From a virus, in the IMG/VR virus record IMGVR_UViG_3300034198_021698, positions 1-21,092 of that record: a stretch of 21,092 nt of DNA; one strand, written 5' to 3'. Of the stretch, positions 1 to 19,419 are shown in pieces. Each line of letters begins with the position of its first letter. The stretch's first letter is position 1. Below the pieces are notes generated by a model. That model was not told the origin of the DNA. It did no database searches and worked only from the letters and a program-made list of their open reading frames with translations. The translations under genes and the position numbers were made by a program.

Positions 1-2187
1 ATAACTTTCCAACTTAACCTTAAATTTTTCTTTTTCTGTAATTTTGGAAGTAGTTAATTTTAACGCACTGGTTCCTTTGTTAAGTAATTCCGACAGCCGA
101 GTGTGTTCTTCAACAGCACTACGAAGTTCCGGAAGATTTGCGTTTGTAATTTCGTTTATTTTTTCTACGATAGTTTGTTGAATTATATTTAGTCGGAGTT
201 CTGCATCCAACTTATCTTCTCCACACTTATTAATAATATTTTGTGCATCGGTGTGTCTTACTCGTAACTTATCTAGGTCCAATTCAATGTCTGGTACAGG
301 ACGTTTTTTGTCTTGCCAATCCTTCAACTTTACATCCAACTGTTCACGTTCCAACTTGATATTATTAAATAATTTATCAACCTGATCGTGTTCATCACGA
401 GCATCATCTAACTTCGTCTGTGTATCGGATAGTGTCTGTGTAAAATCTATCTTCTTAAACTTACGAAGCGCACCCGAAATTTCCTTCATCTCGTCATTTG
501 CCGTATCAGCCAACTTGTCAAAGATACTCAATCCCATAAACTGGATGAGTAGGTCTTTTCGTTCTGAGTGCGACTTATCAATGAATAGAGCATTGCTAGT
601 CTGTCCGCTGAGTGCCGTGAGGACGAAATCTTCATAACTACCCACATAATTACGAATGTTGGCGTTCGTATCACGACGGTCCTCACCGTTCAATGACTCG
701 TGCGTACCATCTTCATTTTCCCGCCAGAACGAGACATCAACCTTAACATCCCCGTTTTTCTTACGAGTTCCAGTTCTACGAATGTAGAATATTTCTTGGT
801 TAATTTCAAATTTTAATTGACAAGTAAACTCATCTTTACGGTTATTCATAATGTGATCACCACGGAATGCTCGCGGCGTCTTATCGTACAAAGTAAAGAT
901 GAGCGCATCCATTGCTGAACTCTTTCCACTTGCGTTCTGTGCAAAGATTCCGTAAATACCCTTCATCTTCCCAAAATTAATAATATTATCCTCGCCATAT
1001 GAAAACATATTTGAGAATTTAAGTTGAAGGGGTCGCCAGTTAACATTACGAGAATGGTCATCGTGGTTAATTTGCGCATTCAGATTCTTATTAACATCAA
1101 GAATCTTTGTCATTAGTGGACGGTCAATTGTATTATCATACTGCCGTTCCAACCAATCTTGAATGAGTTGATTCTGTATATTCAAGTTGTTTACGTCAAC
1201 AATATCTGACCCACTCTTAATCTTATCACGAGTGTTATTATCATGTCGAGACTTGTTGATACTCAATTCAATAATATTATATTGTTTACGTAGTGTCGCT
1301 ACCGCTTTCTTAACACCAGAGTTATCAAGAGTTCCTGTAAACAGTCGCATACGAACATTCTTTGGAACGTCCGTAGGAAACGGTAGTTTTCCATTCTTAA
1401 CTTCCAACGTGTAGTATCCATAATTGTTTTGTAGTGGTTTAAATTCATGCGTACACGCGTTCACATCCCACATACACCAACCGTGATTGTCTAATGTTTC
1501 ACCGTGGTTTTGTTGAATCAACGACGATGCGTAAACTATAATCGGTTTCTTTGCGTGTACATCTCGTTCTTGTAATACTTGATATTTGTGGATATCACCC
1601 AACAAGACCATATCAAATCCATTGAACAAAGATGTTTCAACGTGGCGATTGGTAATGATATATCGTGCATCAGTCTGTGCGCCGTGTACAGGACCATGAT
1701 ACAAAGCAATCTTACGACGACTTTCGCAATCTTTTACAGAAGGCCACTTTTCCTTATCATCCAAAATGGAAAATACGGCAAAGTCCGTATCACCCACTCT
1801 GTATATACCTGAATGTTTGAGGTAGAATAGTTGATCATGATTAATACTTTCAATCAATGGAGTTAAACTATCCAAACGATTCATATTGGACAGATTGAGA
1901 TCATGATTACCTGCGATGACTAACGTAGGAGCAATATTAGCTAACTTCTTTAAAAACTCCGTTGCCAACATCACCATCTCTGGACTCATATCCGTTTTTG
2001 CGTGGAGAATATCACCAGCTACAACAATGACCGAATCCGTTAAATCTTCGTTACGTAACTGGTCATACAATGTCTCAAAACATTCTCTGTACTCATCATG
2101 TCGTTTGAATAATCGAATATGAATATCAGCCAGATGTACGATTTTCTTTAACTTATCAATTCCAGCAAATACAGGTGTATATGTCAT
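1..2187 (-). CDS. Fused SbcD/Mre11 nuclease - SbcC/Rad50 ATPase, 3' end cut by window edge
   Basis: I translated this frame codon by codon: it is open from the ATG at 2187 to base 1, 729 codons with no stop, so the C-terminus lies outside the window. Residues 1-300 carry the calcineurin-like phosphoesterase motifs of Mre11/SbcD/T4 gp47: D21-x-H23, G58-D59, GNHD at 93-96, H164 (YHGPVHG) and GDIH at 197-200. From about residue 380 a Rad50/SbcC/T4 gp46 ATPase lobe starts, with a Walker A-type loop at 416-424 (AQNASGKSS) and a candidate Q-loop glutamine at 529 (LSGQ). From about 545 the sequence is charged and heptad-like, as expected of the Rad50 coiled coil. In T4 and E. coli these are two separate proteins that form one end-processing nuclease complex; here they are one chain. 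The start codon overlaps the primase stop as ATGA, implying coupled translation. The second ATP lobe (Walker B, signature) should lie beyond the left edge. No Shine-Dalgarno precedes Met359, so separate internal expression is not supported. Confidence 0.93.
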   Translation of the reverse strand, partial: MTYTPVFAGIDKLKKIVHLADIHIRLFKRHDEYRECFETLYDQLRNEDLTDSVIVVAGDILHAKTDMSPEMVMLATEFLKKLANIAPTLVIAGNHDLNLSNMNRLDSLTPLIESINHDQLFYLKHSGIYRVGDTDFAVFSILDDKEKWPSVKDCESRRKIALYHGPVHGAQTDARYIITNRHVETSLFNGFDMVLLGDIHKYQVLQERDVHAKKPIIVYASSLIQQNHGETLDNHGWCMWDVNACTHEFKPLQNNYGYYTLEVKNGKLPFPTDVPKNVRMRLFTGTLDNSGVKKAVATLRKQYNIIELSINKSRHDNNTRDKIKSGSDIVDVNNLNIQNQLIQDWLERQYDNTIDRPLMTKILDVNKNLNAQINHDDHSRNVNWRPLQLKFSNMFSYGEDNIINFGKMKGIYGIFAQNASGKSSAMDALIFTLYDKTPRAFRGDHIMNNRKDEFTCQLKFEINQEIFYIRRTGTRKKNGDVKVDVSFWRENEDGTHESLNGEDRRDTNANIRNYVGSYEDFVLTALSGQTSNALFIDKSHSERKDLLIQFMGLSIFDKLADTANDEMKEISGALRKFKKIDFTQTLSDTQTKLDDARDEHDQVDKLFNNIKLEREQLDVKLKDWQDKKRPVPDIELDLDKLRVRHTDAQNIINKCGEDKLDAELRLNIIQQTIVEKINEITNANLPELRSAVEEHTRLSELLNKGTSALKLTTSKITEKEKFKVKLESY

Positions 2188-3095
2188 TTATTCTGTAACC
2201 TATTGTGTATGAAGTCCTTAAATGTTGTTGCCTTTGAGTTGTTTATAAACTCCCAGGTCTTTTGAAATCCAAGGTCGGCGGCGTCGCCACCACTCACCGA
2301 TACTTGTGATACATTAATACCATACGATGTTAATTTTCGTTCAAGATTCAATGCTTCCGTCTTTGCATCATCATCCAAAAGAATATATACTTGTTTGACT
2401 TGATTTTCAAGTAGTGATACTTCTAATTTTTTTGGAAGAAATTTTCCTAGCATTGGAATTGCATTACGACGAACAGATATTGCGTCAAACACACCTTCAA
2501 CCAACACGATTGGTTCGTTCCAATTAATCTGTTCTTCAAATACTACTACATTCTTTGATACAGGTGGATTCTTATATTTCATTCCAGCATCGTGATATGC
2601 CCGCGCTACAAAATAATTTAGTTTACCATCATTTGCGTATGATGGAACAACAATACGTCCACCGTACGTTCCAGATTCACAATACCCCATGCGATAACGA
2701 ATGATATCATATCCAGAAATACCACGTTTTTTTAAATAATTAATAGCATGTTTGTATTCAAATGTATTAACTGGTTTCCATAGTGGTAGAAACTCTTTTG
2801 GGAGATATAAGTCAGAAACTTCCGTTATATCTTCTTTGTAAGTTTTAATGTCATCATCAGAAAGACACTTACGAAGTTCTTTAATCTGTACGGGTGATAC
2901 ATCTAATTTTTTAAACAGTCCTATTAGATTTCCACCCTTTGCGCCACACACCCAGCATTTCCACTTGTTCTTTATAACATTCACCGCAAATTTCTTATTG
3001 TGATGATGGCAAAACGGGCAAGAGAAGTAGTGTTCTCCTTTGCCCATATTGTCATAATTACCGAGTATTTGTGATAAGAGAGAGATTAGATTCAT
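2184..3095 (-). CDS. DnaG-type DNA primase (CHC2 zinc finger + TOPRIM)
   Basis: This 303-aa protein should synthesise RNA primers at the phage replication fork. It has a CHC2-type zinc ribbon at the N-terminus (C26-x2-C29, HHH at 30-32, C47-x2-C50), a DnaG core motif around 121-139 (LKKRGISGYDIIRYRMGYC), a catalytic-core segment RIVVPSY at 147-153, and a TOPRIM domain with E200-G201 and D241-D242-D243 as candidate metal-binding acids. It is shorter than bacterial DnaG and close to phage primases such as T4 gp61 (about 340 aa); no helicase domain is present, so it would need a separate helicase. The start at 3095 is forced, because an in-frame stop lies just two codons upstream (3099-3101) and the next Met is residue 17, close to the zinc finger. 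Its AAGGAG site is 20 bases from the ATG with a hairpin between them. Its stop overlaps the start of the fused SbcDC gene. Confidence 0.92.
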   Translation of the reverse strand: MNLISLLSQILGNYDNMGKGEHYFSCPFCHHHNKKFAVNVIKNKWKCWVCGAKGGNLIGLFKKLDVSPVQIKELRKCLSDDDIKTYKEDITEVSDLYLPKEFLPLWKPVNTFEYKHAINYLKKRGISGYDIIRYRMGYCESGTYGGRIVVPSYANDGKLNYFVARAYHDAGMKYKNPPVSKNVVVFEEQINWNEPIVLVEGVFDAISVRRNAIPMLGKFLPKKLEVSLLENQVKQVYILLDDDAKTEALNLERKLTSYGINVSQVSVSGGDAADLGFQKTWEFINNSKATTFKDFIHNRLQNK

Positions 3096-3143: not shown

Positions 3144-3488
3144 TTATTGTTTATTTTTAGTTAGTTCGAAAAAATGCTCTGCTTCTACAATAGCATATGT
3201 TTTTGTGTTATTTCTTTTGAAGAATACAACGGGATGGGTATTATCTTTGGTATTCTTTTCTGCTTGTTCCAATGCGGACCAAATATTAACCTTTTCTTGG
3301 TTCTTACATTCTGGTGAATACGGAAACACTTTCCGAGCAGCGGGAGACAATTTAATGTCTGCACCGGAATCACCCATCAACGTAGATACTACGTCATCGG
3401 GTTCTAACTGTGGAAAGTGTTCTAGTATTAGGTCACGAATTGCGTTCTGCAATCGCTTCCCTTTATTTTTTGCGCTACGAGCCTTCAT
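3144..3488 (-). CDS. PD-(D/E)XK-type nuclease, resolvase-like
   Basis: This 114-aa protein has the compact layout of a PD-(D/E)XK nuclease. An N-terminal basic helix (KNKGKRLQNAIRDLI) is followed by G39-D40-S-G-A-D44 and then E60-C-K62, which fit the D...ExK metal-binding core; the downstream segment FKRNNTKTYAIVEAEHFFEL would supply the last strand and helix. Small phage members of this fold are often Holliday-junction or branched-DNA nucleases, which would suit the neighbouring primase and Mre11/Rad50 fusion. The acidic residue usually seen in the first helix is not obvious. The ATG at 3488 follows AGAGG with five bases of spacing. Substrate is unknown: a VRR-NUC-like or other endonuclease role is equally possible. 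The fold call is fairly firm, the resolvase role tentative. Confidence 0.7.
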   Translation of the reverse strand: MKARSAKNKGKRLQNAIRDLILEHFPQLEPDDVVSTLMGDSGADIKLSPAARKVFPYSPECKNQEKVNIWSALEQAEKNTKDNTHPVVFFKRNNTKTYAIVEAEHFFELTKNKQ

Positions 3489-11674: not shown

Positions 11675-13156
11675 TTATACTTCGTATATTTTTCCATCAA
11701 CACAACATCTTGTCAGCTCATCACAGACACGTGTTGGGTCAAAACTACCATCTCTACGATAGAAACAATCACTATTTTGCATACATTCTCCACAAATTCC
11801 CTGTCCACCGCCATTACCCGTACCACGGTCATATGTACATTTGCCGCTATCACGTGTAGCCGATGAATTGTAATTTGTCGCCGTAGGATCCATACATCCG
11901 TAAACTATGGTTTCATATCTACATTCACCGCTATCACGAACAGCATGTGGATTATAATTTATAGCTGATTTATCCATACAACCAGTTACATACATACACG
12001 AATTATCATTTTCCGTTGCATCTGGATTATAATTTATTGCTGTGGAATCCGTACATCCTACTTTTGCTGGTTTTCCTGTATATTCGTCTGTACACGATTC
12101 TCTGCATCCACCAACAATAGTATCTTGAATTAATCTACATACGTTGGTATACGAAGGATCTTGATTATTTGCAGGCCGTGTTTGTGTAATTTTACCAATT
12201 TGTAAACATGGGTCTAACTTTACATCGTATGTACAACAATTTGTACATGATACTAAATTTTCACCTTGCACATAATTGTTTGCTAATGGGTCAGTACATC
12301 CCGTAAACTTACAAGTTCCGTTATCTTTTTCAGCCGCAGGATCATAGTTAAAAGCTTTTGGATTTGTACATCCAACTTTATAATATTGACAACTACCATT
12401 ATCAATTACCGCATATCCATCAAAATTTTTGGCATTTGGATCGGTACATCCAACTGCTAGATCACTAATCTTATATCTGCAACATCCCTCACATATGGTA
12501 TTAGCCAATGGATTATAATTTGTAGCATTTTTATCCATACATCCAATTATAATATCAATACAGCTACCATCATCTTGGGTTGCTTTTGAATTATAATTCA
12601 ACGCATTTTTATTAGTACATCCGAGTATTTCCGCCGGCGGCGCTTTGTATGTACAGCTACCATCTTCCGTATTTGCTCGTGGATTAAAATTTAGTGCATT
12701 GATATTTGTACAACCATATATTTTTGGAATACAAGTACCGTTATCAATAGTTGCACTTGGTGTATAATTTAACGCAGCAGGATCTGTACATCCATATATT
12801 CCAACTGGTTGTGGTGGAAGTGGTGGAGGTGGTGGAGGTGGAGCAACCGGAATTATTACGGGAGTTGCCGTTACCACAAAATTAAGAGAACTATTTAGTA
12901 CCCCGACAGGAAGTGTTTCGAGTGGTGCGGTCTGAAAATTTACCGTTATTTGTTTACTTTCATTGGGTCTTAACGTAATATTATTTGGTGAAACGGACGA
13001 TCCATCTAACGTACTAGATATATTCACTGTTAGTGTATAATTGGATGCCACATTTGTAGCAGTAAAAGTTGCTCCCGAAATAGCACGGGTTCGCAACTTA
13101 TACGGTACTACAAGTTGGGTCTGTGACAGTTGTAAGTAATCTGCTGCATTGGCCAT
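11675..13156 (-). CDS. Ig-like head, polyproline hinge and ten GCTDP-type Cys repeats
   Basis: This 493-aa protein has three parts. Residues 1-103 form a beta-rich Ig-like domain (NYTLTVNISSTLDGSS, ESKQITVNFQT). Residues 104-117 are a polyproline hinge (APPPPPPPLPPQP). Residues 122-443 contain ten units of the form GCTDPxAxNYNPxATxDDGSC; units 4 and 7 end in a CxxCC variant. Residues 445-493 are a separate Cys-rich tail (CGECMQNSDC...CC). Paired cysteines at both ends of each unit suggest disulphide-stapled knobs. Such repeats occur widely in secreted Bacteroidetes proteins and in some aquatic viruses, where they are thought to be surface or adhesion modules. There is no signal peptide, in keeping with a virion protein released by lysis. 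The ATG at 13156 follows GAGG at six bases. It lies next to the LamG protein, so a fibre or adhesin role is inferred. Confidence 0.85.
   Translation of the reverse strand: MANAADYLQLSQTQLVVPYKLRTRAISGATFTATNVASNYTLTVNISSTLDGSSVSPNNITLRPNESKQITVNFQTAPLETLPVGVLNSSLNFVVTATPVIIPVAPPPPPPPLPPQPVGIYGCTDPAALNYTPSATIDNGTCIPKIYGCTNINALNFNPRANTEDGSCTYKAPPAEILGCTNKNALNYNSKATQDDGSCIDIIIGCMDKNATNYNPLANTICEGCCRYKISDLAVGCTDPNAKNFDGYAVIDNGSCQYYKVGCTNPKAFNYDPAAEKDNGTCKFTGCTDPLANNYVQGENLVSCTNCCTYDVKLDPCLQIGKITQTRPANNQDPSYTNVCRLIQDTIVGGCRESCTDEYTGKPAKVGCTDSTAINYNPDATENDNSCMYVTGCMDKSAINYNPHAVRDSGECRYETIVYGCMDPTATNYNSSATRDSGKCTYDRGTGNGGGQGICGECMQNSDCFYRRDGSFDPTRVCDELTRCCVDGKIYEV
11825..12793 (-). repeat. Ten tandem protein-coding GCTDP repeats
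   Basis: The DNA encodes ten degenerate units of roughly 21 residues with variable linkers. Units 1-3, 5, 6 and 8-10 keep the pattern GC[TM][DN]..A.N[YF]...A...[DN].[GS].C; units 4 and 7 have CEGCC and CTNCC endings. Neighbouring units share short identical DNA words around the NYN codons, for example GGATTATAATT on the plus strand, which could promote unequal recombination and change repeat number. Confidence 0.85.
12812..12844 (-). repeat. GGTGGA-type microsatellite encoding the polyproline hinge
   Basis: The plus strand reads as near-continuous GGTGGA/GGT units, giving CCA/CCT proline codons on the coding strand. Slippage in multiples of three would lengthen or shorten the hinge without breaking the frame. 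Confidence 0.75.
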
Positions 13157-15262: not shown

Positions 15263-15988
15263 TTACTTTACTTCCGTTACTGAGAGTTGCTTGTCCGTTA
15301 CTACGTTTTGTAGTTTTGTTAATTTATCCATATACCCAGCTCTTCGTAATAACTTAAATGCAAGATTTTCTGTGGAAAACTCACCACCAAGTTGTAATCC
15401 AGATTGTCTAAATTTACCCAACTTGTCACGGAATTTTTCAATTTTTTTATCCAATCCGTCAAGTTGACCATCTTGAAATTGTTTTACCAATTGATTATAC
15501 ACACTAGTAAAATATCTTACCTTAGTCATTACATCTTGTTCATCATATACCGGTGTTTCTTTTTTTGGTTCTTTAATCCAAGTATCTTTCATCACACTGT
15601 ATAGTCCCGTTGCAACGTGTGGTGACTTTTCATCTTCGACATACACTTCCACATCATATCCCTTGATTGTAATATCATGTTTATCATTCCACTTTGACTT
15701 TGCTAACAAGAAAAATTGTGATAATAATTCGTTATCTTTTCCAAAATCAAATAATAAATGAATATCAACATCGGAGTAGTCTGAGTAGTTGTAGTTTGCT
15801 AAACTTCCGGTAAACACTATGTCTTTGATTTTTGGTTTATTTTCCAACTCAATACTATCATAGAACTCCTTTGCAATTCTCAAAAGAGCTTTACGAATAT
15901 TTGGGTTAAGTTTATTGTCAGATGTCCAGAACTGTCTATTCAGGTCTGGTTGCACCTTAAAGGTTTTAATCAAGTCATCGAAAGTCAT
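15263..15988 (-). CDS. Nucleotidyltransferase-fold protein (Pol beta superfamily) inside the tail operon
   Basis: This 241-aa protein carries the signature of the DNA polymerase beta-like nucleotidyltransferase superfamily: G61-S62 in FTGSLANYNYS, D73-x-D75 in YSDVDIHLLFDF, and a third candidate acid at E114 in GYDVEVYVED. The helix-rich C-terminus (about 125-241, with KIEKFRDKLGKFR) would form the substrate-side domain. Enzymes of this fold add nucleotides to proteins, RNAs or small molecules; the substrate here is unknown. Similar proteins occur among structural genes of uncultured phages, so the placement is probably not an accident, but no function follows. Its ATG directly abuts the previous stop (TAAATG) and no Shine-Dalgarno is visible, so its translation is likely coupled to the DNRLRE-like gene. 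All three acids of the catalytic triad look intact, so it may be active. Confidence 0.85.
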   Translation of the reverse strand: MTFDDLIKTFKVQPDLNRQFWTSDNKLNPNIRKALLRIAKEFYDSIELENKPKIKDIVFTGSLANYNYSDYSDVDIHLLFDFGKDNELLSQFFLLAKSKWNDKHDITIKGYDVEVYVEDEKSPHVATGLYSVMKDTWIKEPKKETPVYDEQDVMTKVRYFTSVYNQLVKQFQDGQLDGLDKKIEKFRDKLGKFRQSGLQLGGEFSTENLAFKLLRRAGYMDKLTKLQNVVTDKQLSVTEVK

Positions 15989-17023
15989 TTATTTTACCAA
16001 GAAGGTAAATACATCAGGAATAATACTTGTGTCGGAATCACCATTATCAATTTGAAGATTTACAGTATAATATCTGTTCTTGTATAAATTTGATGTGTCC
16101 AATACAAAGTATGATCCGGTTGCGTCACAACTTAGTTTTGCACTAGCATCTATTGGGTATACAGGAACATTTGCTTGTTTATCAACCACACTAAAATATG
16201 ATGTTTTTGGTAAGTAGTATATGCTCTTGTATCTGAGTGTTGCGTCGAAATTTTTTCGTGGATATTTGTCTCTTACAATAAGTCTAAGTTTTTCTTTTGA
16301 TCCACGAATGTATGTTTCTTTTGCATTCTTAGGAACCACGGAAATATCCACAGTATTTGGTATAGCTTTTAATGCAGACCCAGTTACAAACATAGAATCA
16401 TCCCACGCAACTTCCAATGTTGGTTGGTGAATTGTATGTGTCTGTTTTGAAAAGAATTTTATATTACCTTCATTGGTATAATCTGCTTCCGATACACTTG
16501 GATATTTAACCAATAATCCATACCAAGGAAGTGATTGCGAAATTACAGGTCTTAATATTGACGATACATCTATACGTAAATCTTGTAGTGGATACTCATC
16601 CAACGTTATACTTTGTGATGGCGTTGTATAATAATCACCACCCACATTACTCCACGATACCGAGGTGGTTGCTTGTCTCCACGTAGCACCATCACCAGCA
16701 TTTTTTGTTTGTTGTACATAGTATCCACTACCTTCGGTCCACGAAGAAGATACTTTATACACCAATAACTGTTGTGAATATGGAAGTTTCTGTGCGTTTG
16801 CTATTTTTAAATTTAAATAATATGACGCGGTTGCCGGGAACGATCCGCTGTTAGATATATTAAAATTTAATAATGTTCGAGCCGCACTAGCGGAGTACGC
16901 AATTTCCAAATCTTCTGGATTTGCTACTTTTCCTACTTCAAGAATTTCATCCAACCCAGCATTGTTTGTTGGATTACGTTGATATAGGGTTGTGTCTGCG
17001 GAGGATGTTAGGAATATTCTCAT
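15989..17023 (-). CDS. DNRLRE/CBM96-like beta protein of the baseplate block
   Basis: This 344-aa protein has an N-terminal beta-sandwich with the hallmarks of DNRLRE (CBM96-like) domains: RTLLNFNIS near residues 49-57, a hydrophobic YYLNLKIANAQ strand, then SSSWTEGSG, GATWRQATTSVSWSNVGGDY and LRIDVSSILRPVIS. The segment WYGLLVKYPSVSEAD...NIKFFSKQ continues the same fold (about 165-195). The remaining third is also beta-rich. Such domains serve as carbohydrate-binding or structural modules. In T4 the gene after gp6 belongs to the wedge, so a wedge or fibre-attachment role is plausible, though no sequence match to T4 gp7 or gp8 is claimed. The ATG at 17023 follows AGGAAG at nine bases and overlaps the gp6-like stop as ATGA. 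Confidence 0.8.
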   Translation of the reverse strand: MRIFLTSSADTTLYQRNPTNNAGLDEILEVGKVANPEDLEIAYSASAARTLLNFNISNSGSFPATASYYLNLKIANAQKLPYSQQLLVYKVSSSWTEGSGYYVQQTKNAGDGATWRQATTSVSWSNVGGDYYTTPSQSITLDEYPLQDLRIDVSSILRPVISQSLPWYGLLVKYPSVSEADYTNEGNIKFFSKQTHTIHQPTLEVAWDDSMFVTGSALKAIPNTVDISVVPKNAKETYIRGSKEKLRLIVRDKYPRKNFDATLRYKSIYYLPKTSYFSVVDKQANVPVYPIDASAKLSCDATGSYFVLDTSNLYKNRYYTVNLQIDNGDSDTSIIPDVFTFLVK

Positions 17024-18963
17024 TGTCTTGCACTTCCTACGATATCATCTTCTGGATAACGTATTTCAAAAATACAAGGATCCAGTGATGGGTAAATTAC
17101 ACCATTATCTGTTGCTTCTGTTATATCGTATCTATAAGGTTTGTAATCTCTACCATCCTTATAGAAATATTTGTTAACAATTTCTAATTTATTTACACTT
17201 TGTACACCATCTTGTGCTTGGAGTAATAGTTGCAAGTCTCCCAAACGAATTGGTTGGTTGATGTTCCACTTATCAATGTCAAAATAATCTTTTATAGCAC
17301 CCAGACATACAGTAACTACATCACTCATATTATAATTTTTGAACACGGTAATGTCAAAGTTTACACCGATGTTCACAACGAACGCGTCTAAAATGTTTAC
17401 CTGATCAGTTAACATTCTATATTCGGATAAGTATTTTTGAAGATTTGATTTTACCAATTGATTTAGATTTGTAATCTTCTTATTTTGATTGTATCCCAAC
17501 ACATATAAGTTGATTGCGTTTGGTTTTGGATTATCATCAACAAACTGTCTAATTGTCTGATCAACTTGTTGTGGTGTTACTTGTGCTTGAATTTTTGATT
17601 GTAATGTATCTGAGATAGCAAATACCTTAGCAACCGCGCCGTATTTAGCTGGCATTGCAAGTGTTCTAGCTTCGTAGTCTCTACGTGTAACAACACGATT
17701 TTGTGCGGAGAATGATGCTAATGCACGTTGTCGAATTTCTTCGACAGTTTCACCATCCAATCCACCTGTTGCTGGCATTTCATTATATACGGTAACAGTA
17801 CTTACTATGTCGTTAAATAAAGCTAATTCGGTAGAATTGAATTCCGTTGTTCTATTTATGATATTTAATTGACCAACTTGGGTTATAGTACCAGATGCTA
17901 CGTTACTATCAACTCCGCCACCAGTAACATATTCAACAGTTAAATCTGTGTTTGCAGGAGCGATACCAAAGTTGTCTGTGTCTAATAAATCTGTATTACT
18001 TAATGATACACTTGCTAAATTTGTACCATAATCGGAGTTTGCAACTTGTTGTGAGTCCAAATATACAATATCTTCCGAGACATTACCACGACCAGAACCA
18101 AATACCAATTGTGTAGATTTATCAGTTGTTAATCGTGTAACATATCTTCTGGGAACAGATCTATATGTTATGGAATACGATGGACTAATGGATTCACTTA
18201 CACTTGCTTTGTAACTAACTGATCTATCATCAATAATAGTATCTTGTGCTAGATAATCTACCTCGTACCAAGGATATCCATCGGAATCAGTTACTTTTGT
18301 AATTGCTGTTACGTTCTTATCCCCAATAGTAATGGTAGAAAATTTTGCAGGATCACCAATAGTGAACGTTTCCTGTTTTACATCACCAGCAATTACTTTC
18401 ACTTTTTTAGTTACTAAATAGGTAACAGGTAATAGCGTTGTTGAATCCAACTGTCGTGGTACTATCGCTCTATCAATTGGGTCGTTAAAATCTACCATAT
18501 CTTTTGTTCTAAACGAAACAATATTTGGACCTTGTGTAGATATAGTAGAATTTCTATCTATTTTTAAGAAATAATTTGCATCCGGTATGTACCCATCACT
18601 GGCTCCTAGTGCGGGAACTATTTGTGATATGAGTACTTCTGCCGTAGCCGGAACAATCACTTTTGGTTTATATCCCATTGCCTGTGCTATACTAATTATA
18701 TTTTTTTCTTCTTCTGCGTAGGCCAATAGATTTTCTTTAAATTGATTATCCACATAGAATGACAATACATCGCCAACATATGCAGCTAATTCCAACATAA
18801 TCATACCCGGATTGGCTTCGTTAAAATCCGTCCAAGTTGTTGGGTAATAGTTTTTAATAAACGTGATGAGGTCACCCTTAAAATCAACAAATGACTTGTT
18901 AAGGTATCTTACCTCTTTTGGTGCCACGGATAGTTTATTTAATACATTATTGGTTGTAGCCAT
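17020..18963 (-). CDS. Baseplate wedge protein, T4 gp6 / P2 gpJ family
   Basis: At 647 aa it is nearly the length of T4 gp6 (660 aa), whose dimers form the ring of the baseplate wedges. The N-terminus has the typical signature FKGDLITFIKNYYPTTWTDF, then NPGMIMLELAAYVGDVLSFY, and an IAQAMGYKPK segment. The central and C-terminal part carries the baseplate-J hallmark GLDGETVEEIRQRALASFSA followed by VVTRRDYEARTLAMPAKYGA and KVFAIS. The last 150 residues (YNMSDVVTVCLGAIKDYFDI, PIRLGDLQLLLQAQDGV) also fit gp6-type C-termini. It directly follows the gp25-like gene, and gp25 binds gp6 in the T4 wedge core. The start at 18963 has only a weak purine stretch upstream, 12 bases after the gp25-like stop. 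The stop overlaps the next start (ATGA). Confidence 0.93.
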   Translation of the reverse strand: MATTNNVLNKLSVAPKEVRYLNKSFVDFKGDLITFIKNYYPTTWTDFNEANPGMIMLELAAYVGDVLSFYVDNQFKENLLAYAEEEKNIISIAQAMGYKPKVIVPATAEVLISQIVPALGASDGYIPDANYFLKIDRNSTISTQGPNIVSFRTKDMVDFNDPIDRAIVPRQLDSTTLLPVTYLVTKKVKVIAGDVKQETFTIGDPAKFSTITIGDKNVTAITKVTDSDGYPWYEVDYLAQDTIIDDRSVSYKASVSESISPSYSITYRSVPRRYVTRLTTDKSTQLVFGSGRGNVSEDIVYLDSQQVANSDYGTNLASVSLSNTDLLDTDNFGIAPANTDLTVEYVTGGGVDSNVASGTITQVGQLNIINRTTEFNSTELALFNDIVSTVTVYNEMPATGGLDGETVEEIRQRALASFSAQNRVVTRRDYEARTLAMPAKYGAVAKVFAISDTLQSKIQAQVTPQQVDQTIRQFVDDNPKPNAINLYVLGYNQNKKITNLNQLVKSNLQKYLSEYRMLTDQVNILDAFVVNIGVNFDITVFKNYNMSDVVTVCLGAIKDYFDIDKWNINQPIRLGDLQLLLQAQDGVQSVNKLEIVNKYFYKDGRDYKPYRYDITEATDNGVIYPSLDPCIFEIRYPEDDIVGSARQ

Positions 18964-18975
18964 TATCTATCTCTA

Positions 18976-19419
18976 TTAAAAATTTCTTGATGTAATTCTA
19001 CCCGATACCGCCAATCCACCCGTGGGGGTTGTTCCTAACAACAACTGTACTTGTTCTGACACCAGTGGGTTATTTGCAAAGCCATAACGAACATATAAAT
19101 TAATATTGTTGTCATTTACAAATGTATCTAGGTTCATAACACGAATTTCTTGTAAAATCAGATACGGCATGAAAGCATCGACTGCTTCCACGACATACTG
19201 TTGTGCTTTTTCTTGAATTTCTCCGTCCTTTTGTTCAAACAATAAACGCCACAAATCACATCCAAAATTAGGATTTGCTACACGTTCACCCTTCTTGGTC
19301 AAAATTAAATTAATAAACTTTGATTTTTCATTTTCCAATGGGTCGGGAGTAGTTTGGAAATACCCACGATTGTTACGTTGTAATGGTAGAGTTGACCCTA
19401 GATATACTGTTTTTGCCAT
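18976..19419 (-). CDS. Baseplate wedge protein, GPW/gp25 family
   Basis: This 147-aa protein matches the gp25/GPW family, which is close in length (T4 gp25 132 aa), helps nucleate the sheath and links the wedge to the tail tube. The family core is clear: INLILTKKGERVANPNFGCD (about 36-55) followed by LWRLLFEQ, a helix EKAQQYVVEAVDAFMPYL and the strand motif LQEIRVMNLDTFVNDNNINL. The C-terminal 25 residues extend beyond the family core. The gene precedes the gp6-like gene, in the same W-J order as phage P2. Its start at 19419 lies three bases after the previous stop without a strong Shine-Dalgarno, so coupling is likely. Confidence 0.93.
   Translation of the reverse strand: MAKTVYLGSTLPLQRNNRGYFQTTPDPLENEKSKFINLILTKKGERVANPNFGCDLWRLLFEQKDGEIQEKAQQYVVEAVDAFMPYLILQEIRVMNLDTFVNDNNINLYVRYGFANNPLVSEQVQLLLGTTPTGGLAVSGRITSRNF

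Follow-up and report, generated by a model that had tools for sequence, protein, structure and literature searches.

A tailed-phage gene encoding an Mre11-like nuclease and a Rad50-like ATPase in one chain, and a related branch in which the gene may have been cut again

Does this phage locus really encode the two enzymes of an Mre11-Rad50 (SbcD-SbcC) complex as one protein, or are two adjacent genes joined here by an error, and what would such a protein do? The window, that is, the whole stretch of DNA analysed, is a virus record of 21,092 bases carrying tailed-phage genes. On its minus strand, a frame starts with ATG at 2187 and runs without a stop up to the window edge. A sequence-only reading had proposed a natural fusion of both enzyme halves in an open frame of 729 codons, and this was borne out by reading of the open reading frame and by the Pfam and PHROG profiles. 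Pfam assigns residues 15-202 to Metallophos (E 4.4e-11) and residues 389-611 of the same chain to AAA_23 (E 4.2e-9), and PHROG recognises SbcD at 14-349 (7.7e-24) and SbcC at 279-723 (8e-21); the Mre11-like nuclease comes first and the Rad50-like ATPase follows in a single open frame. The gene and its parts are as follows.

1..2187, minus strand: Mre11-Rad50 fusion gene of 729 codons, truncated at its 3' end by the window edge (about 1060 codons in relatives).
1429..2148, minus strand: Mre11/SbcD phosphodiesterase core, residues about 14-253, motifs I-V (Pfam, invariant columns, model).
1255..1422, minus strand: Mre11 capping domain, residues about 256-311 (modelled secondary structure and alignment to nuclease-plus-capping structures).
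1186..1254, minus strand: low-confidence loop, residues about 312-334 (pLDDT below 50 at 316-329).
1072..1185, minus strand: two helices matching the Rad50-binding helix-loop-helix of Mre11/SbcD, residues 335-372 (335-349 and 356-372; model).
1039..1071, minus strand: linker between the nuclease and ATPase halves, residues about 373-383, the gap from the last Mre11 helix (ending at 372) to the first Rad50 strand.
499..1038, minus strand: Rad50/SbcC N-terminal ATPase lobe, residues about 384-563 (AAA_23, models).
919..942, minus strand: Walker A loop AQNASGKS, residues 416-423, with alanine in place of the first glycine.
601..603, minus strand: candidate Q-loop, Gln529, in a column conserved in at least 90% of sequences.
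1..498, minus strand: first coiled-coil arm, residues about 564-729 (modelled as long helices in the relative L025).

The nuclease half carries all five phosphoesterase motifs that had been named from the letters alone, namely D21-I-H23, G58-D59, GNHD at 93-96, H164-G165 and GDIH at 197-200. The metal ligands of Mre11/SbcD are present, with one ligand histidine replaced by aspartate, and D21, H23, D59, N94, H95, H164, D198 and H200 are invariant across 48 aligned sequences. Residues 1-386 of the window's own protein were modelled with a mean pLDDT of 86.0 and a pTM of 0.77, and the nuclease-half model aligns with SbcD 7dog_B (Z 25.3, rmsd 3.2, 275 aligned residues).

The Walker A loop, the candidate Q-loop and the coiled coil expected after the nuclease were likewise found. 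The Rad50/SbcC assignment relies on Walker A and the Q-loop in the window, and on the CxxC hook, signature, Walker B and H-loop in full-length relatives only. The search with the window protein gave 19 loci, in which whole genes are of about 1060 residues and end with a CxxC hook, an SSGMER-like signature, a Walker B DEG and an H-loop SHLD. One further contig is 100% identical in protein over residues 1-529, and the missing 3' part was read from relatives, the nearest of which is 85% identical. A second ATPase lobe, predicted by the earlier reading to lie past the left edge, was found in relatives, where nearly all complete frames contain the signature and Walker B and the L025 protein folds as a whole Rad50 head. 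The full-length L025 model, built with 48 sequences, has a mean pLDDT of 80.8 and a pTM of 0.43; its Rad50 half, from residue 381, aligns with E. coli SbcC from residue 1 onward (7yzo_D, Z 27.6, rmsd 3.9, 347 aligned). Variant forms of the Rad50 motifs are characteristic of the group, since the signature is SSGMER in most sequences, not LSGGE, and alanine replaces the first glycine of Walker A. The alanine-first pattern was matched in 68 of the best 79 of 348 loci and gave no match in the other 11, among which L081 has glycine.

These 348 loci came from a search with a ten-sequence alignment, which matched 373 stretches, 348 of them encoding a relative; the best 79 were kept, and many of their contigs recur from the search with the window protein. 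Among these best 79 of 348 IMG/VR loci, the gene is complete in one frame in 68, open to the contig end in 10 and broken in one (L064). The 68 complete relatives within that set are of 1055-1096 residues, and crude patterns matched nuclease motif II in 59 of them, motif IV in 58, the signature in 65 and Walker B in 65. In the alignment of 48 sequences, the hook cysteines, the SGME signature, the DEG of Walker B and the SH of the H-loop stand in columns conserved in at least 90%. Selection was estimated as pN/pS from 54 pairs of 75-97% identity (47 pairs for the C lobe), and the values are 0.13 for the nuclease core, 0.16 for residues 300-390, 0.15 (0.146) for the linker, 0.31 for the coil and 0.07 for both the N and C lobes of the ATPase. 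The junction is under purifying selection. Among plasmids, tblastn found four records, none covering 80% of the query. The genome search gave two relatives, both on short contigs of metagenome-assembled genomes and assumed to be phage contigs. A relative of 74% identity (L104, SHWS01000037.1) lies on a 7.2-kb contig binned in a Pelagibacteraceae genome from Lake Baikal, and this binning is a weak hint at the host.

The surroundings of the gene are those of a tailed phage.

2184..3095, minus strand: DnaG-type primase, directly upstream, overlapping the fusion start by four bases (ATGA).
3144..3488, minus strand: Holliday-junction resolvase-like gene (PHROG 244, E 3.6e-19), in the same order in the relative L017.
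17020-18963 and 18976-19419: baseplate wedge proteins (Pfam, PHROG).

A primase precedes the fusion in 69 of 69 testable loci, i.e., those with at least 1.2 kb before the gene, and 19 of the 20 starts examined begin with ATGA, as does that of the window, where the primase stop overlaps the fusion start. A RecA-family gene is present in 8 of 12 long records; the four others are contigs of 86-97 kb and are perhaps fragments. Separate SbcD- or SbcC-like genes were not recognised with PHROG profiles, which a diverged copy could escape, in 11 of the 12 long records. The sole exception is the huge phage LR756501, in which a diverged fusion coexists with separate SbcD- and SbcC-like genes. The absence of a diverged second copy is insecure, because the PHROG SbcD profile overlooked an existing nuclease in 2 of the 12 records; short weak matches to the SbcC profile occur elsewhere in three, namely those of Mel-JY01, L017 and LR756501. 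Two other genes of the window may be mentioned. A 493-residue protein with many repeats of the GCTDPxAxNYxPxAxxDxGxC type (11675-13156) lies among structural genes and has no PHROG match, and a nucleotidyltransferase-like gene (15263-15988; Pfam NTP_transf_2, E 3.7e-4; PHROG 36119, E 1.4e-40) lies among the baseplate-side genes.

The structure of the junction differs from that suggested at first. A linker had been placed at residues 300-378, and this segment proved to be mostly folded, consisting of the end of the capping domain, the low-confidence loop and the Rad50-binding helices, while the linker proper occupies only about residues 373-383. In the L025 model, residue 380-381 corresponds to residue 1 of SbcC/Rad50 (three are added for the window numbering). 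The structure alignment extends past residue 370, through the helices, in 7 of the 50 matches listed, and this is a part which the aligner itself flags as barely tested. The lowest rmsd among these seven is that of E. coli SbcD 7yzp_B, aligned over 14..378 (Z 22.6, rmsd 4.5, 308 aligned), followed by 7yzo_B (14..373, rmsd 5.6, 318 aligned) and 6s85_B (rmsd 5.6). Looser matches through the helices are E. coli SbcD 6s6v_A (rmsd 10.5), 3av0_A (rmsd 8.3) and two of T. maritima Mre11, 3tho_B (14..375, rmsd 10.4) and another with an rmsd of 21.5. In one contig, read twice as L010 and L035, 13 linker residues are missing in frame in comparison with near-identical contigs; this deletion may be natural or an assembly flaw.

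Such a frame could be an artefact, with two neighbouring genes joined through faulty sequencing or assembly or through a stop lost recently, and a probable case of this kind was met in Listeria phage LMTA-57 (L120:1741-4770). Its product is annotated as one chain of 1009 amino acids, the ATPase part of which still has an ATG of its own together with a strong ribosome site, and in the relative LP-048 there are two genes with a gap; the one-chain annotation of LMTA-57 is probably a recent or erroneous join. The gene of the window is different, since a single open frame covers the match in 78 of the best 79 of 348 loci, two fixed columns flanking the junction are 42-46 residues apart in all 48 aligned sequences, the junction pN/pS is 0.16, and just 2 of 48 sequences have an in-frame Shine-Dalgarno (SD)-like site with a start at the junction. 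In view of the many independent contigs and the constrained junction, we rejected the artefact and the lost stop as extremely improbable, and the proposal of a genuine one-chain protein stands. One argument used for it was of less value: no ribosome site precedes the ATPase part within the window, as had been stated, but this says little about the age of the fusion, because only 9 of 48 sequences have an SD-like site ahead of the start of the gene itself. It is also conceivable that the chain is cut after translation, or that internal initiation additionally yields a free ATPase, so that the working complex consists of separate subunits. Low-confidence segments do flank the Rad50-binding helices at 316-329 and 376-386 (the latter being the end of the modelled piece), a methionine occurs within residues 365-386 in 8 of 48 sequences, and an SD-like site stands before an in-frame start near the junction in 2 of 48. 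However, the linker is constrained (0.146), no start is conserved there, and the first conserved methionine is situated within the first Rad50 strands (FSNMFSYG), where a start would no longer give a complete lobe. Cleavage or internal initiation is therefore regarded as rather unlikely.

We also considered whether the protein has moved from replication to conflict, acting for instance as a nuclease of Lamassu-like or anti-defence kind. The Rad50 half is matched by the PADLOC model of LmuB (E 3.5e-25), and Foldseek gives Lamassu structures among its matches. LmuB, however, is related to Rad50/SMC proteins itself, and such a match is expected; Mre11-Rad50 and SMC-type entries outrank Lamassu in Foldseek, and the neighbours are primase and resolvase-like genes. 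The LmuB match was taken for ordinary Rad50 kinship, and a defence role, in our opinion very improbable, was set aside. The preferred reading is that of a phage Mre11-Rad50 complex made as one polypeptide.

The sequence-only reading had implied that such a fusion was new. In fact, Mre11/Rad50 fusions were described in 2011 for Mimivirus R555 and twelve other sequences (Yoshida, Claverie and Ogata, PMC3175470), and R555 was later termed an 'Mre11/Rad50 fusion protein' (PMC6466248). The phage gene is not new in kind and belongs to the fusion class of 2011. According to the 2011 description, aquatic viral metagenomes are rich in R555-like genes, some of which were suggested to come from phages, and phage primases are among the genes on R555-like marine scaffolds (PMC3175470). 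Most of the fusions described there keep the capping domain and the helix-loop-helix and have 9-12 extra residues before Rad50, an estimate made from the T. maritima complex, the Bacillus phage fusion being the exception (PMC3175470). The protein of Bacillus phage 0305phi8-36 is one of the fusions which that paper names. The window gene shares with the R555 type, as published, an Mre11-like part followed by a Rad50-like part, a linker of about 9-12 residues and a phage primase nearby; here also the capping domain and helix-loop-helix (by the helix match in 7 of 50 listed structures) are kept and about 9-12 extra residues stand before Rad50. It differs from R555 in belonging to a tailed phage, with baseplate genes in the same window, and in length, its relatives being of about 1060 residues against the 1351 given for R555, so the coiled coil is probably shorter than that of R555. 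In R555, Asp242 stands where Pyrococcus has His206 in motif V (PMC3175470). The window has the same aspartate, D198, matched by motif and invariant in the 48 sequences. It does not single out an R555-like branch, because the split Vibrio phage 70E37.1 (GDLH) and other jumbo-phage fusions (GDIH) share it. Giant viruses supply the best structure matches in BFVD, namely proteins of 970-1390 residues annotated as DNA repair exonuclease or similar, from Tupanvirus (25% identity), Harvfovirus and Catovirus, which rank above Tenacibaculum phage proteins; judged by their length and span, these matches would be fusions.

Fusions are found in cultured phages as well. One-chain genes are annotated in Tenacibaculum phages PTm1 and pT24, Sphingomonas phage PAU, Chryseobacterium phage MA9V-1 and Microcystis phage Mel-JY01, while for Tenacibaculum PTm5 and Chryseobacterium MA9V-2 the evidence is from tblastn only. 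The Mel-JY01 fusion, directly preceded by a primase-like gene, shares 36% identity with the relative L001; the Tenacibaculum, PAU and Chryseobacterium fusions are of about 1300 residues and form their own group in both domain trees. In T4 and cyanophage S-CAM1, gp47 and gp46 are the same two enzymes in the same order, but encoded by two genes with small genes between them, and gp47 has GHFH in motif V in contrast to GDIH in the window. Their own records support the earlier statement that T4 gp47/gp46 and E. coli SbcD/SbcC are encoded separately, and the window gene is not a pair of this kind. E. coli SbcD/SbcC and cellular Mre11/Rad50 share the fold of both halves with the window protein, but their genes are separate, and E. 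coli SbcC alone has 1048 residues, which means a coiled coil much longer than in the fusion.

Each domain tree comprised 24 rows, 17 fused and 7 split; the nuclease piece of LR756508 was omitted from the Mre11 tree, the window from the Rad50 tree, and Mimivirus and cellular fusions from both. Split rows, T4 and S-CAM1 included, lie on one side of a branch in both trees with supports of 99/96 (Mre11) and 97/93 (Rad50); the roots and deep branches are unsure, and the E. coli, Vibrio and Staphylococcus rows are long. A single fusion origin among the sampled phages would be compatible with these trees, and for the wider sample of 2011 several fusion events were favoured (PMC3175470).

A further search, started from the one broken locus, concerned genes outside the window. 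It gave 474 candidates, of which the best 80 were kept, with some contigs already among the 79; this sample leans to the split state, because the query itself is a split piece. In the best 80 of 474, the frame runs on into Rad50 in 49 loci, runs on without a match to the Walker A pattern in 3, reaches the contig end in 3 and stops in 25. In these 25, the stop comes soon after nuclease motif V, following a GW-containing tail, and a second piece always follows; it measures 859-871 residues between stops in 22 loci and is truncated by the contig end in the other 3. In all 15 cases read, it starts with ATG and a short head. In 23 of 25 loci the pieces are separated by an ORF of about 295-330 residues; L147 has a 103-residue ORF there, and L122 (the same as L064) only 69 bases. 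The 13 of the 23 insert ORFs that were inspected are alike, and to us these ORFs of about 300 residues look glycosyltransferase-like; two of them gave in Pfam only a weak match to DUF354 (E 0.0013 and 0.0016). Examples of split loci are L152:4001-8178 and L022:5962-10184. In the 484-kb phage LR756508, a TnsA-like endonuclease ORF occupies the same split site, and a search for an Rfam RNA element there gave two matches with E<1, both far below gathering scores.

The pN/pS is 0.35 for both the tail and the head (55 and 54 pairs from 11 loci) versus 0.16 and 0.14 for the flanking pieces, so that both segments are under constraint, but more weakly than the pieces beside them. As a conjecture from sequence, tail and head could be the two parts of a split mini-domain. 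A fused gene would then have been cut again in the nuclease after motif V, and the conserved beta-alpha-beta tail would pair with the short beta head and hold the enzyme together; the path would lead from two genes to one chain and then to two new pieces, with the window phage as the intermediate. We put this forward tentatively, as a possible course of events and somewhat doubtful as a whole. Phage genes split by homing endonucleases and yet functional are known. In a limited full-text literature search, which did not cover the insert genes, no paper on the second split was recognised by title or abstract opening, and the re-split finding is more novel than the fusion itself.

As separate subunits, too, Mre11 and Rad50 function in a 2:2 assembly; the fusion keeps the ratio of 1:1 and does not, as had been supposed, impose a new one. 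It is very probable that the gene specifies the Mre11-Rad50 (SbcD-SbcC) complex as one polypeptide, a DNA-end processor similar to gp46/gp47, whose assembly, activity and role we infer. The chain would begin with the nuclease core and capping domain, continue through the Rad50-binding helices and a linker of about ten residues, and end with a whole Rad50 ATPase whose coiled coil bears a CxxC zinc hook. By analogy with separate-subunit complexes, two chains most likely dimerise through nuclease-nuclease, ATP-driven head-head and hook contacts, and the nuclease helices would grip the coil root of their own or the partner chain, between which the model, with its pTM of 0.43, cannot tell. The fold and motifs were computed, and the role is drawn from SbcCD and from T4 gp46/gp47 (record notes and the discussion in PMC3175470); the T4 record gives gp46/gp47 as required in recombination and host-DNA degradation. 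As T4 gp47/gp46, the enzyme may open and resect DNA ends, giving 3' single strands for a phage recombinase of RecA/UvsX type, and resection would lead to recombination-dependent replication alongside the primase and junction resolvase. Breakdown of host DNA may be a further function of the fused enzyme.

With both halves in one chain the partner is fixed in cis, and such a complex would lend itself to structural and single-molecule study of nuclease motion relative to the ATPase heads. Phage records may label such genes merely as 'AAA domain containing protein' or 'metallo-phosphoesterase'. With full-length tailed-phage genes, a conserved neighbour and structure models, the suggestion of 2011 that R555-like fusions are carried by phages gains a concrete candidate.
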